A DNA stretch of 34,530 nt from Verrucomicrobiota bacterium. GTDB taxonomy: Bacteria; Verrucomicrobiota; Verrucomicrobiia; Chthoniobacterales; UBA10450. The stretch lies in NCBI GenBank assembly GCA_003218755.1, contig QHOK01000030.1, forward strand, positions 36,195 to 70,724, given 5' to 3'. The notes under the pieces were generated by a model. It worked only from the letters and a program-made list of their open reading frames with translations. It searched no databases and was not told where the DNA came from. Shown here piece after piece: positions 12,053 to 23,786 of this stretch; within the stretch, counting starts at the first letter, position 1; every line of letters starts with the position of its first letter. Both the position numbers and the translations under genes were made by a program.

Positions 12053-12074
12053 AGCCCCGAAAGCTTTCGGGGCT
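12053..12074. repeat. perfect 22-bp palindrome abutting the tmRNA 3' end (possible terminator/processing hairpin)
   Basis: AGCCCCGAAAG|CTTTCGGGGCT; no following U-tract on the minus strand. Confidence 0.7.
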
Positions 12075-12427
12075 GGAGGCGAGGGGAGTTGAACCCCTGT
12101 CCTCGTCGCTATCCGCGCAAACATCTACATGTTTATCCGACGATAAAGTCTAGGAGCCAAGCCATGCGCCGGCGCACTACCGGCTCCCGAGCGTCCACGA
12201 AATCGATTCACAAACCGGCGCGGTCGCTCCGCCGATTTGCCAGCCTGCTGTCCACGTTTGCCGCCGTAGCAGGCGTCCAGCGTCAAACGTCGCGGTCAAT
12301 TAAGCCGCGAGAGCGAGACCTTCGTTGTCTGCGTTTATTTTTTTGGTCCGGTTTTTAACGAGGCCAACGAACCATCCTCGACATGCCGCCTGCGCTTCCA
12401 ACGATGAGTCGAAGCCAGTGCGCCCCC
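12074..12427 (-). ncRNA. ssrA: transfer-messenger RNA (tmRNA)
   Basis: 5' GGGGGCG pairs with 3' CGCCTCC plus discriminator A; T-arm 'GGACAGGGGTTCAACTCCCCTCGCCTCCA'; 'GTTGGCCTCGTTAAAAACCGG...' ; tag ORF GCAGACAACGAAGGTCTCGCTCTCGCGGCTTAA = ADNEGLALAA* at 12332..12300. Confidence 0.95.
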
Positions 12428-20119: not shown

Positions 20120-21085
20120 GTGGCACTTCGTTTTCCTAAAAAGAGCCGGCGAAATGTTGTTCGCCAAACATCGCGGGATGGTGCGCCTCTTCCACGACTT
20201 CGGGATTCCACTCGCGTCCGGCTGCGTCCACGAGCTGACTGGCATAAGCGCAATTTTCTGACCAGCGTCTTGATCCCCTCGCTTTTCACTAAGCGTTCCG
20301 GTGGTCCCGCGGCTCCGCAATTCCCGAAAATCCGCGAAGGCGAGATCTCCATAACCTGGATCGGTCATGCGTCATTTCTCATCCAAACCCACGAGGTCAA
20401 TATCTTGATCGACCCGATCTGGTCGAAATGGCTCAAGGTGATCAAGCGGTTGAAACAACCAGGCTTCGAAATTCATCATCTGCCTTCGATTGATTTTGTC
20501 CTGGTGACGCATGCACATTTCGATCATCTCGACCGGCGAACGCTACGGCGCGTCGCGGCGGATCAACCGATTGTTGTGCCCATGGGCGTAGGAAACCTGG
20601 TGCATGATCTCGGCTTTCATATCGTGCACGAGCTCGATTATTGGCAAACGGTCGAGCTCGGCCCGCTAAAAATTTCTCTCACCCCTTGCCACCACTGGGG
20701 CGCCCGGTTCCTCGCCGACTTGCATCGCGATTTTGGCGGATTTGTAATCGCTTCGAATGGCCGCACGATTTTTCACTGTGGCGACAGCGCTTACTTTCCC
20801 GGGTTCAAGGAAATCGGCGACCGCTACAAGATCGAGATCGCACTGCTCCCCATTGGCGCTTACGAAGCGCCCACCGGCCGCGAAGTTCATATGAATCCCG
20901 AGGAAGCGGTAAAAGCATTTCTCGAGCTTCGTGCGGAGACTTTGATTCCGATGCATTACGGGACGTTTCGCCTCGGCTTTGAACCGCTCCACGAGCCACC
21001 GCAACGCCTGCTTAGATGCGCACGCTCGCGTGGCATTGAGGAAAAAGTTTTGGTGATGACCGAGGGAAAACCGGTGGTGCTGTGA
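20120..21085 (+). CDS. MBL-fold metallo-hydrolase (UlaG / NAPE-PLD-like)
   Basis: 'ISITWIGHASFLIQTHEVNILIDPIWSKW', 'VLVTHAHFDHLDRRTL', 'LTPCHHWGARFLADLHRDFGGFVIASNGRTIFHCGDSAYFPGFKEIG'. Likely GTG start. Confidence 0.88.
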   Translation: MALRFPKKSRRNVVRQTSRDGAPLPRLRDSTRVRLRPRADWHKRNFLTSVLIPSLFTKRSGGPAAPQFPKIREGEISITWIGHASFLIQTHEVNILIDPIWSKWLKVIKRLKQPGFEIHHLPSIDFVLVTHAHFDHLDRRTLRRVAADQPIVVPMGVGNLVHDLGFHIVHELDYWQTVELGPLKISLTPCHHWGARFLADLHRDFGGFVIASNGRTIFHCGDSAYFPGFKEIGDRYKIEIALLPIGAYEAPTGREVHMNPEEAVKAFLELRAETLIPMHYGTFRLGFEPLHEPPQRLLRCARSRGIEEKVLVMTEGKPVVL

Positions 21086-21543
21086 GAAAGAAAACGCCGA
21101 ACGCCCAACATCGAACGCCGAACATTGAATTCGGAAAGTGGCGCGTTGCTGAGCTTCCTGACGGACGATACAAGTTCAAGCGCGAGCACCTGTACGATCT
21201 TGAAGACAGGCTCCTGGAGTTTGCCGCAAATATTATCGAACTCACCGAGTCATTGGAAAATACTCGAGCTGGAAATCACGTCGCCGGACAACTCTTGCGA
21301 TGCGGCACATCATCTCTTTCGAATCACGGGGAGGTTGAAGCAGCAGAATCACGCAGAGACTTCCTTCACAAACTACGGATTTGCCTTAAAGAACTGCTCG
21401 AAACAAAACGGTGGTTGCGACTCGTAGGCCGAGTAAAAAAACTCGGGTCACCCGCAAACTTCACCATTTGCATCAATGAAATCGAACAGCTGATCCGGAT
21501 TTTCGTGGCCAGCATCCGGACCGCTGAGAGAAACGCCAAATGA
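21082..21543 (+). CDS. four helix bundle protein (23S rRNA-intervening-sequence / S23 family)
   Basis: 'LYDLEDRLLEFAANIIELTESLENTRAGNHVAGQLLRCGTSSLSNHGEVEAAESRRDFLHKLRICLKELLETKRWLRLV'. GTG start overlaps the MBL stop (GTGA); N-term 'KTPNAQHRTPNIEF' is encoded by the flanking repeat. Confidence 0.85.
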   Translation: MRKKTPNAQHRTPNIEFGKWRVAELPDGRYKFKREHLYDLEDRLLEFAANIIELTESLENTRAGNHVAGQLLRCGTSSLSNHGEVEAAESRRDFLHKLRICLKELLETKRWLRLVGRVKKLGSPANFTICINEIEQLIRIFVASIRTAERNAK

Positions 21544-21599
21544 TGCTCGCTCCGTCGGAGTTTGACGTTCGGCGTTGGACGTTGAGCGTTCGGCGTTTT
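21091..21599. mobile_element. candidate compact element: IVP-like gene bounded by 33-bp inverted repeats
   Basis: Left 21091-21123 AAAACGCCGAACGCCCAACATCGAACGCCGAAC; right 21567-21599 reads AAAACGCCGAACGCTCAACGTCCAACGCCGAAC on the minus strand (30/33 identical). Confidence 0.45.
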
Positions 21600-21608
21600 C
21601 TGTTTTAG

Positions 21609-23786
21609 ATGTCCGCTTTGCGCTCCACGCGTTCGGAAATTCTCGGCGCGGCAACAGCAGGGCTAGTCGTCGTATTCTTTTGCTTCATTCTTCTCTGGCA
21701 TGATCCGCTGGTTTTTTGGAATGATGATTATGAGTTGTCGATCTTGCCCGTGTTCGCCGATATGGCGCGCAGCTGGTCGGAGGGGCATTGGCCGATCCTG
21801 AGTCCGTATTCGTGGGTTTGCGGCAATCTTGCCGGCGAATTTCAATACGGCACCTTTTCCCTTTTTGTAAACGCGGCCGTTATTTTCATCTGGAAATTTC
21901 CGCTTACGTTTCCGCAGCAGGCCACTGCGCTTTCAATCATGCACCTTTTTGTGCTGGCGATGGGCGCATTTTTGCTCGCGCGTGACCGCCAACTTTCGAT
22001 TCCATTATCGATCTTCGTTGCACTTGTCGCCTCGCTAAACGGCTGGATCATCTGCTGGGGCGCGACCGATTGGTTCGGGGCCCTCGGTGCGTTCACGTGG
22101 CTGCCATGGGCGTGGTGGGGCGCGGGACGCGCGCTGGACCCGCGACGAACGAAATGGCGATTCCTCTGGCCAGCGCCGTTCGTTTACCTGCTCGTCACCG
22201 GCGGCTTTCCTTATACGGTTTTGATGTTGCTGCTGTTGATTGGCTTGCTTTTCATCAAGTCGTTAGTCCAAACCCGCAGCATCTTCTCGATCTCGCCGAT
22301 GCTTTTTGGTATCGCGCTCGGCTTTGGATTGTCCGCGCCAGCATGGCTTGCGGTTCTTGATCTCGTTCAAGGTTCAGCGCGCGAACTGCAGCCGCCGTCC
22401 GCGCACTGGCAATGGCTCGTTCCACCAGCGGCATTGCCGGGATTAATCCTTCCCTCGTGGACCGTGAACTGGACCGATTTCTCCTCGAAAAGCGTTCCGC
22501 ATACCGCAACGGAATTGGCGTGCGGCTTGGTTGCTCCCGGTGCGCTTGTTGCTGGCTTGGTCTGGCGCGTCCGCATGCTCATTACGCGACTCAAATGGGA
22601 GTTCGTCCTGCTTCTGATCGTGTTGTTGCTTTGCATGATTCCGACAGCTGGACTTTTCCGTTGGAGTTTTCGGTGGCTGCCGTTTTTTCATTTGGTCCTG
22701 GCAATTTGTGCCGCGGAGGTGCTGGAACAGCGGCCGGGATCACCGATCCCGGCTACAGCAGCGCTCGCTCTCACTGCACTGACAGCCCTAGCGATGCTAG
22801 TCTTGCATACCGCTGGCTCCTACGCTTTGCCGCTGACGTGGCTCTTACTCGGGCTCGCGGCGATTTGGTTACTTTCAGAGCTCTTGCTGCGTGATTCTGA
22901 ATTTCAAAAATGCGTGCCTGTCGTGATCGCGTTTTTAGCGCTGCTCGCTACATATCTCTGCATTCCGACAAACTGCGATGTGCCGAGATATAATTTTTCT
23001 CAAGAGCTGCTTAAACCTGAGCCGCTCGATCCGGAGCGCCTTTATCTAAGCATCTATCCGTGGGCAGAGCTAACGTATTGCATTGCAAATAAACCACAGC
23101 CGGTGGGCCAGGTTCTGCGCCCGGGAAGCACATCGATGTGGGCCGGACTGCATTTCATTAATGGCTACAGCCCAATCCGAGCCGCTGGCATGGCGCGCAA
23201 ATTTGCGACCACCATTCATGGTGAAATTAATCCAGATGTGGGAAGCTATTTGCTCAGTCAACAGGCTGGCAAGGATGGCGAACTGGCTTTGCTGGGTGTG
23301 GATGGAATTGTTGTTGCACGAGAATTAGACCTCACGCCCCAGCCGGGTTCCGGATGGGAAATGGTTGTTTCAACAGATGAAGGACGCGTCTTCCATCGAC
23401 ACGGTACGCCATTCGCGCGGGTGCGTTCAGTCACGTCAATCGATTCGCGGCCTAACGAACAATTTGCCTCGGCGACGATTTCAAAGATTACTGATTCGCG
23501 AAATTCGGTTGAAGTGGATGTCGATGTTCCGAGCGGTGATCGGCCCGCGCTGCTGACTTTTTCGCGGCCGTATTTTCGCGGCTACGAAGCGCGAGTCGGC
23601 GACCAAAAACTCGTCCTCACTTCTTATCGCGGCTTATTTCCGATTCTCGAAGTTCCACCCGGCGCACATGGCCGGCTGAGGCTCACCTATCGGCCGTATT
23701 GGCTAGTCTGGGGAGGCGCTGTAGCCGTGATTTGTGCGTTGGTGGTGGTTTTGAGCTTTCTTGCTGCGGTTAACCGACGCACATAA
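21609..23786 (+). CDS. large multi-pass membrane protein, YfhO-like
   Basis: Many TM segments, N-term 'LLWHDPLVFWNDDYELSILPVFADMARSWSEGHWPILSPYSWVCGNLAGEFQYGTF', C-term 'RPALLTFSRPYFRGYEARVGDQKLVLTSYRGLFPILEVPPGAHGRLRLTYRPYW', typical of the YfhO family. Confidence 0.7.
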   Translation: MSALRSTRSEILGAATAGLVVVFFCFILLWHDPLVFWNDDYELSILPVFADMARSWSEGHWPILSPYSWVCGNLAGEFQYGTFSLFVNAAVIFIWKFPLTFPQQATALSIMHLFVLAMGAFLLARDRQLSIPLSIFVALVASLNGWIICWGATDWFGALGAFTWLPWAWWGAGRALDPRRTKWRFLWPAPFVYLLVTGGFPYTVLMLLLLIGLLFIKSLVQTRSIFSISPMLFGIALGFGLSAPAWLAVLDLVQGSARELQPPSAHWQWLVPPAALPGLILPSWTVNWTDFSSKSVPHTATELACGLVAPGALVAGLVWRVRMLITRLKWEFVLLLIVLLLCMIPTAGLFRWSFRWLPFFHLVLAICAAEVLEQRPGSPIPATAALALTALTALAMLVLHTAGSYALPLTWLLLGLAAIWLLSELLLRDSEFQKCVPVVIAFLALLATYLCIPTNCDVPRYNFSQELLKPEPLDPERLYLSIYPWAELTYCIANKPQPVGQVLRPGSTSMWAGLHFINGYSPIRAAGMARKFATTIHGEINPDVGSYLLSQQAGKDGELALLGVDGIVVARELDLTPQPGSGWEMVVSTDEGRVFHRHGTPFARVRSVTSIDSRPNEQFASATISKITDSRNSVEVDVDVPSGDRPALLTFSRPYFRGYEARVGDQKLVLTSYRGLFPILEVPPGAHGRLRLTYRPYWLVWGGAVAVICALVVVLSFLAAVNRRT

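Follow-up and report, generated by a model that had tools for sequence, protein, structure and literature searches.

A short gene of the S23/IVP family lies between the genes for an MBL-fold hydrolase and a YfhO-like membrane protein in a Verrucomicrobiota genome, enclosed by inverted repeats, which raises the question of what kind of unit the gene and its repeats form and whether this unit moves. Proteins of this family, known since the early 1990s, appear in many genome annotations as “four helix bundle protein”; to our knowledge, they have no settled function. We analysed the locus within a window of 34,530 nucleotides, that is the whole stretch of DNA under study, which covers positions 36195-70724 of contig C124 in the source genome, a 2.6-Mb draft of 293 contigs. 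We find that the segment 21089-21601 is, with a probability that we put at roughly 60%, a compact selfish element free of a transposase, in which inverted arms made of short tandem repeats enclose the S23/IVP gene.

An S23/IVP gene between heptad arms

The original prediction placed near-identical 33-bp inverted repeats around an S23/IVP-like gene, and both the coordinates and the match of 30/33 (91%) hold for the arm cores, which ungapped extension lengthens to 47-nt arms that are 83% complementary (Table 1). The sub-repeat had been taken for a decamer (AACGCCGAAC), but the actual period is 7, and the arm unit at this locus is the heptad AACGNCN. The left arm begins 5 nt after the MBL stop (21083-21085), within the ~6 nt first proposed, and 9 nt separate the end of the right arm from the YfhO-like ATG at 21609, exactly as claimed. 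Because the IVP reading frame starts at a GTG (21082) that overlaps the MBL stop (GTGA), the left arm is the N-terminus of the IVP protein and is translated as VRKKTPNAQHRTPNIEF, in agreement with the same prediction. An overlap of this kind (ATGA or GTGA) is found in 8/8 genomes carrying an IVP at the MBL-yfhO junction.

Table 1. Window coordinates of the element and its neighbouring genes
Feature	Position	Strand	Support
MBL-fold hydrolase gene, upstream neighbour	20120..21085	+	PF12706, 2.3e-39; ORF list
S23/IVP four-helix-bundle gene, GTG start	21082..21543	+	PF05635, TIGR02436; PDB 2rld (sequence and fold)
Left arm, AACGNCN heptad array, core 21091-21123, translated as IVP N-terminus	21089..21135	+	
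Family domain of the S23/IVP gene	about 21214-21501		
Right arm, inverted AACGNCN heptad array, core 21567-21599	21555..21601	-	
YfhO-like membrane protein gene, downstream neighbour	21609..23786	+	PF09586, 3.4e-07

As arm score we used the highest-scoring local match between the 300 bp upstream of the IVP domain and, in inverted orientation, the 300 bp downstream of it. The window locus scores 29.4, while shuffled flanks of same-genus IVP loci never exceed 13.6. Of 1854 places chosen at random, 1429 of them in the window and 425 at other loci, none has such arms, and the highest score is 13.2. In its predicted RNA fold (z -4.17), the element has its two arms paired from end to end, and the inverted ends form a stem around the S23p ORF as they do in the intervening sequence (IVS) of 23S rRNA. 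Elsewhere in the window (12071-12427, minus strand) lies an ordinary tmRNA gene with the tag ADNEGLALAA.

The IVP domain is conserved, its arm-coded end less so

Both family profiles match the protein above their cut-offs (PF05635 with 42.6 bits against 33.8, TIGR02436 with 70.5 bits against 24), and its AlphaFold2 model, a monomer, consists of four helices, with low confidence for the arm-coded residues 8-17. Profile and four-helix-bundle fold thus both place the protein in the S23/IVP family, as had been supposed, and the nearest solved structures in a structure search are the S23-family entries 2rld and 2gsc. A weaker structural match leads to Avd (4dwl, 8ub7; query-normalised TM-score 0.55-0.62, E about 0.02-0.08). 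The S23-family structure from X. campestris is a homopentamer (as cited in PMC4990558). No nuclease or transposase domain was found in the IVP, PF05635 being its only Pfam match.

In five comparisons of window-type orthologues with usable divergence, dN/dS is 0.10-0.14 for the IVP domain and roughly 0.5-1 for the N-terminus encoded by the arm. Judged by these ratios, the domain is under purifying selection and the arm-coded N-terminus not clearly so.

Inverted arms surround most IVP genes examined

We examined 140 scorable IVP loci in 35 genomes of the same genus and found inverted arms (score at least 14) in 119, with 107 reaching 16 and 21 having no clear arms. In the wider phylum 25/29 IVP loci are armed, and so are 63/78 in named genomes from at least six phyla (0 in shuffles), both sets being the best-scoring or closest IVPs rather than a random sample and the named loci having been gathered with a single-protein query. 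By phylum, the armed loci of the named set divide into Verrucomicrobiota 21/25, Planctomycetota 11/11, Bacteroidota 23/33 and others 8/9 (Acidobacteria, Armatimonadota, Patescibacteria, Gastranaerophilales and more); these others include a Thermoplasmata locus (L397) whose long repeat lacks a heptad period and may be of another kind. Arm units are arranged in tandem and are mostly 6-8 bp long, period 7 being the commonest (67/107), and they vary widely: GTGAGAA, CGAAACGG, ATTTAGCG, GATACTG, AGTTGAG, TTTTAAG and others.

We considered whether IVPs that have no arms sit in 23S rRNA; of the 15 named loci that lack clear arms, 13 were run through Rfam and none of these contains rRNA. Our search of the open literature found no account of repeat arms around IVP or GxxExxY genes. 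That most of the IVP relatives examined in many phyla are armed suggests that S23/IVP is part of an overlooked type of minimal jumping element.

Arm units follow the IVP, also away from it

The similarity of arms rises with the identity of the proteins between them: arms match with a score of at least 14 in 0-1% of the IVP pairs below 40% identity, in 51% at 60-80% and in 98% above 80%. For pairs without a common neighbour gene at the protein level, the values are 36-41% at 60-80% identity and 4/5 above 80%, and a Mantel test on such pairs gives 0.21 between arm similarity and IVP identity against a permutation maximum of 0.08. Arm units differ between IVP clades. Copies also exist at other sites: in G003 (C86, L234), a second, related window-type element follows a porin-like gene, and another family, the CGAAACGG-armed IVP, occupies three unrelated sites behind genes that, from reading translations, resemble those for thymidylate kinase, an efflux adaptor and gamma-glutamyltransferase.

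Arrays are also dispersed without the gene. The source genome has 74 matches to the AACGNCN pattern against 15 to the reversed pattern, and most of its arrays stand without an IVP, some as short-loop hairpins (L003, L005, L235, L236) and some as single arms. Several of these orphan arrays are spanned by long ORFs; in uvrB, an AACGNCN array lies in frame (L004:1503-1537) with no stop in an ORF of 742 codons. Where a genome has a window-type IVP, the density of AACGNCN arrays is about 3.6-fold higher (median 32.6 per Mb, n = 9) than in genomes that lack one (9.0, n = 25; p = 8e-5, relatedness ignored), a comparison that omits G034, where a contig ends in the apparent first bases of the element. 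The reversed pattern does not differ in abundance between the two groups. A window-type IVP was looked for in the array-rich genomes G004, G008, G019 and G027 and none was found. One condition under which the original prediction would fail, namely that the arms are generic repeats occurring as often without an IVP, applies in so far as most arrays have none; however, since array abundance is higher with the cognate IVP and units track IVP identity, the arms are not unrelated generic repeats. The arrays without IVP look like non-autonomous hairpins.

A parallel family of arms exists in the genus. GxxExxY/PDDEXK_3 genes (PF13366; L204-L233) lie within inverted arrays, 25/30 scoring at least 14 where shuffled flanks reach 12.8 at most. 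Their unit is mostly 9-10 bp, distinct from the 6-8 bp of the IVP arms, and the same unit type occurs in the junction hairpins CACAGATGAA and CACGGATTA.

These observations bear on a second explanation, in which the heptad hairpins owe their movement to a different enzyme (a RAYT/Y1 transposase or one not yet known) and the IVP is cargo caught between two arrays. The abundance of arrays without IVP fits it, as does the presence of Y1_Tnp genes in 33/35 same-genus genomes, and the similar arrays around GxxExxY genes mean that arrays may be a general container. We nevertheless consider it unlikely, because the arm unit follows the IVP clade and the period follows the gene family, which cargo leaves unexplained, and because classical REP palindromes (GTCGCGTAGCGAC, CCCAGCGTTTCAACGCTGGG), not heptad arrays, flank the four RAYT-like Y1_Tnp loci examined (L344-L347). 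A RAYT origin of the arms was rejected for the same reason, these loci carrying other repeats. We likewise set aside movement dependent on reverse transcriptase (RT): in the genus, 8/35 genomes have RVT_1, and a search of the source genome gave no match to it, so the element is probably not RT-driven.

Gene junctions are occupied, empty or swapped

Next to the question of what moves stands that of where. Site identity was judged by 450-600 bp of flanking sequence in draft genomes with broken contigs. At the MBL-yfhO junction, 8 of the 27 informative genomes have an IVP with AACG arms (one frameshifted), one has an AACATCG heptad hairpin without IVP, two have GTGANNN hairpins, 12 have CACAGATGAA-type hairpins and four another palindrome. 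The comparison of this junction between relatives, as had been proposed, shows the IVP in some species only and an empty site in 0/27 informative congeners. Every one of these congeners has a palindromic repeat here (L021-L043), drawn from at least five repeat families.

Other junctions fill in the picture. Between sdhA and sdhB the site is cleanly empty in four species, stop and start overlapping or abutting, and two have 11-nt spacers; about 12 have an IVP with arms of several units, three have hairpins of the 9-bp type and the rest other inserts. Between nuoH and nuoI, four have an IVP, two a decayed copy with an internal deletion (L262, L264), eight AATGACG heptad hairpins without IVP and about nine hairpins of the 9-10-bp type. 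In close species, one and the same junction can be taken by IVPs or hairpins of unrelated families. On both sides of the sdhA-sdhB insert TGA/ATGA is repeated, which may reflect coding or functional constraint, and no unambiguous target duplication was found at the loci examined. Between G007 and G014 (L016 and L018), IVP dS is 0.05 and that of the neighbouring MBL gene 0.23, both for short sequences; this difference hints at a recent exchange of the element.

In 90 of 107 armed IVPs the left arm lies at most 60 bp, mostly at most 10 bp, from the stop of a long ORF on the same strand, a proximity met by 14% of random positions. A role of the hairpins as terminators is unlikely, because the inserts lie inside the nuo and sdh clusters, whose genes are presumably co-transcribed.

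The marked tendency to follow a stop codon, on the same strand as the upstream gene, is also what one would expect if IVP and arms were a module useful to the host, such as a device for RNA processing or mRNA stability where genes of an operon meet, which owes its spread to ordinary recombination and transfer and not to any mobility of its own. Purifying selection on the domain, the full occupancy of the MBL-yfhO junction and the RNase III cuts at the heptamers of the Coxiella IVS (PMC4990558) agree with such a module. It is made quite improbable by the four species with an empty sdhA-sdhB junction, by the unrelated families that one junction carries in close species, by the persistence of decayed IVP copies between nuoH and nuoI, and by orphan arrays inside long ORFs, including uvrB. 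Finally, an origin on the spot by replication slippage and palindrome formation, without movement, would suit degenerate tandem arrays that slippage can extend and whose unit order varies among copies, but is highly improbable given dispersed copies in one genome that share the unit and the end motifs AGAAAACG...CGTTTTCT at unrelated places, random places without such arms, and a whole gene present or absent between species.

A proposed mechanism and its meaning

We return to the reading of the locus as a selfish element. On this reading, the arms are its ends and probably serve its own IVP as recognition site. Of the minimal mobile element originally predicted, the repeat-flanked minimal unit is well supported; active transposition, target duplication, binding of the arms by the IVP, mobilisation in trans and the underlying chemistry are what we infer from this organisation. 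We hypothesize that the IVP, as an Avd-like four-helix bundle, binds the long stem that the arms would form in RNA or single-stranded DNA, and helps host enzymes to copy the arm-bounded segment to new places. Hairpins consisting of arms only would depend, as non-autonomous copies, on an IVP acting in trans. Elements would survive mainly just behind stop codons, where neither gene is disturbed and read-through from upstream may provide expression. As to how the DNA would move, our guesses are that host nucleases attack the stem or that the element is copied in the course of replication.

Clade-specific arms around most IVPs examined give a broad clue to the function of the family, namely recognition of its own arms. 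A wider proposal, to which we give somewhat less than even odds, is that stand-alone S23/IVP proteins across bacteria are dedicated to mobilising array-bounded elements that have no transposase and form a class not yet described, that the 23S IVS is a special case that landed in rRNA, and that GxxExxY nucleases drive a parallel class with 9-10-bp units at the same stop-start junctions. The finding that most IVPs examined are armed could also explain unassigned palindromic repeat families in Verrucomicrobiota, Planctomycetota and Bacteroidota and, if the reading is true, would open to study a form of mobility in which no known transposase takes part.

Comparison with known systems

Tandem heptamers at gene junctions are also known as the TAACTGA repeats of Beggiatoaceae, for which the author raised the possibility of a mobile repeat-binding protein (PMC4679880); we found no mention of S23 or four-helix proteins in that paper. 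Unlike the arms described here, the TAACTGA repeats are direct and almost never inverted. Avd, from diversity-generating retroelements, has the same fold by structure search but belongs with a reverse transcriptase, unlike the IVP, given the RT distribution above. The palindromic elements of Rickettsia are small palindromic repeats that can sit in frame inside genes, as the uvrB array does; what we describe differs in being a heptad array with a related form that carries a gene.

RAYT/REP systems are marked by inverted flanking repeats, co-evolution of gene and repeat, and repeat abundance correlated with gene presence (PMC2817692). Our elements share with them a single gene within inverted repeats, further copies of which are scattered on their own, a protein and repeat that co-vary, and an abundance that follows gene presence, relatedness being ignored here. 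They differ in having no HUH/Y1 transposase between the repeats and arms that are tandem arrays without an internal palindrome; furthermore, apart from these elements the genus also has genuine RAYT/REP loci, with different repeats.

In the 23S rRNA IVS of Coxiella, Leptospira and Brucella, an S23/IVP ORF likewise lies within inverted repeats. The Coxiella IVS has tandem heptamers directly before the S23p ORF, the first of them with a site of cleavage by RNase III, and IVSs with an S23p ORF have long been proposed to be selfish or mobile (PMC4990558). In contrast, the elements described here lie between protein-coding genes, tmRNA being all that Rfam finds in the window, and occur in many copies with many units and dispersed orphan hairpins. 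Moreover, the Coxiella S23p is reported to be decaying and probably unexpressed, whereas the IVP protein here is under selection. Taken together, the best reading by analogy is that of an element built like the 23S rRNA IVS and organised like RAYT/REP.
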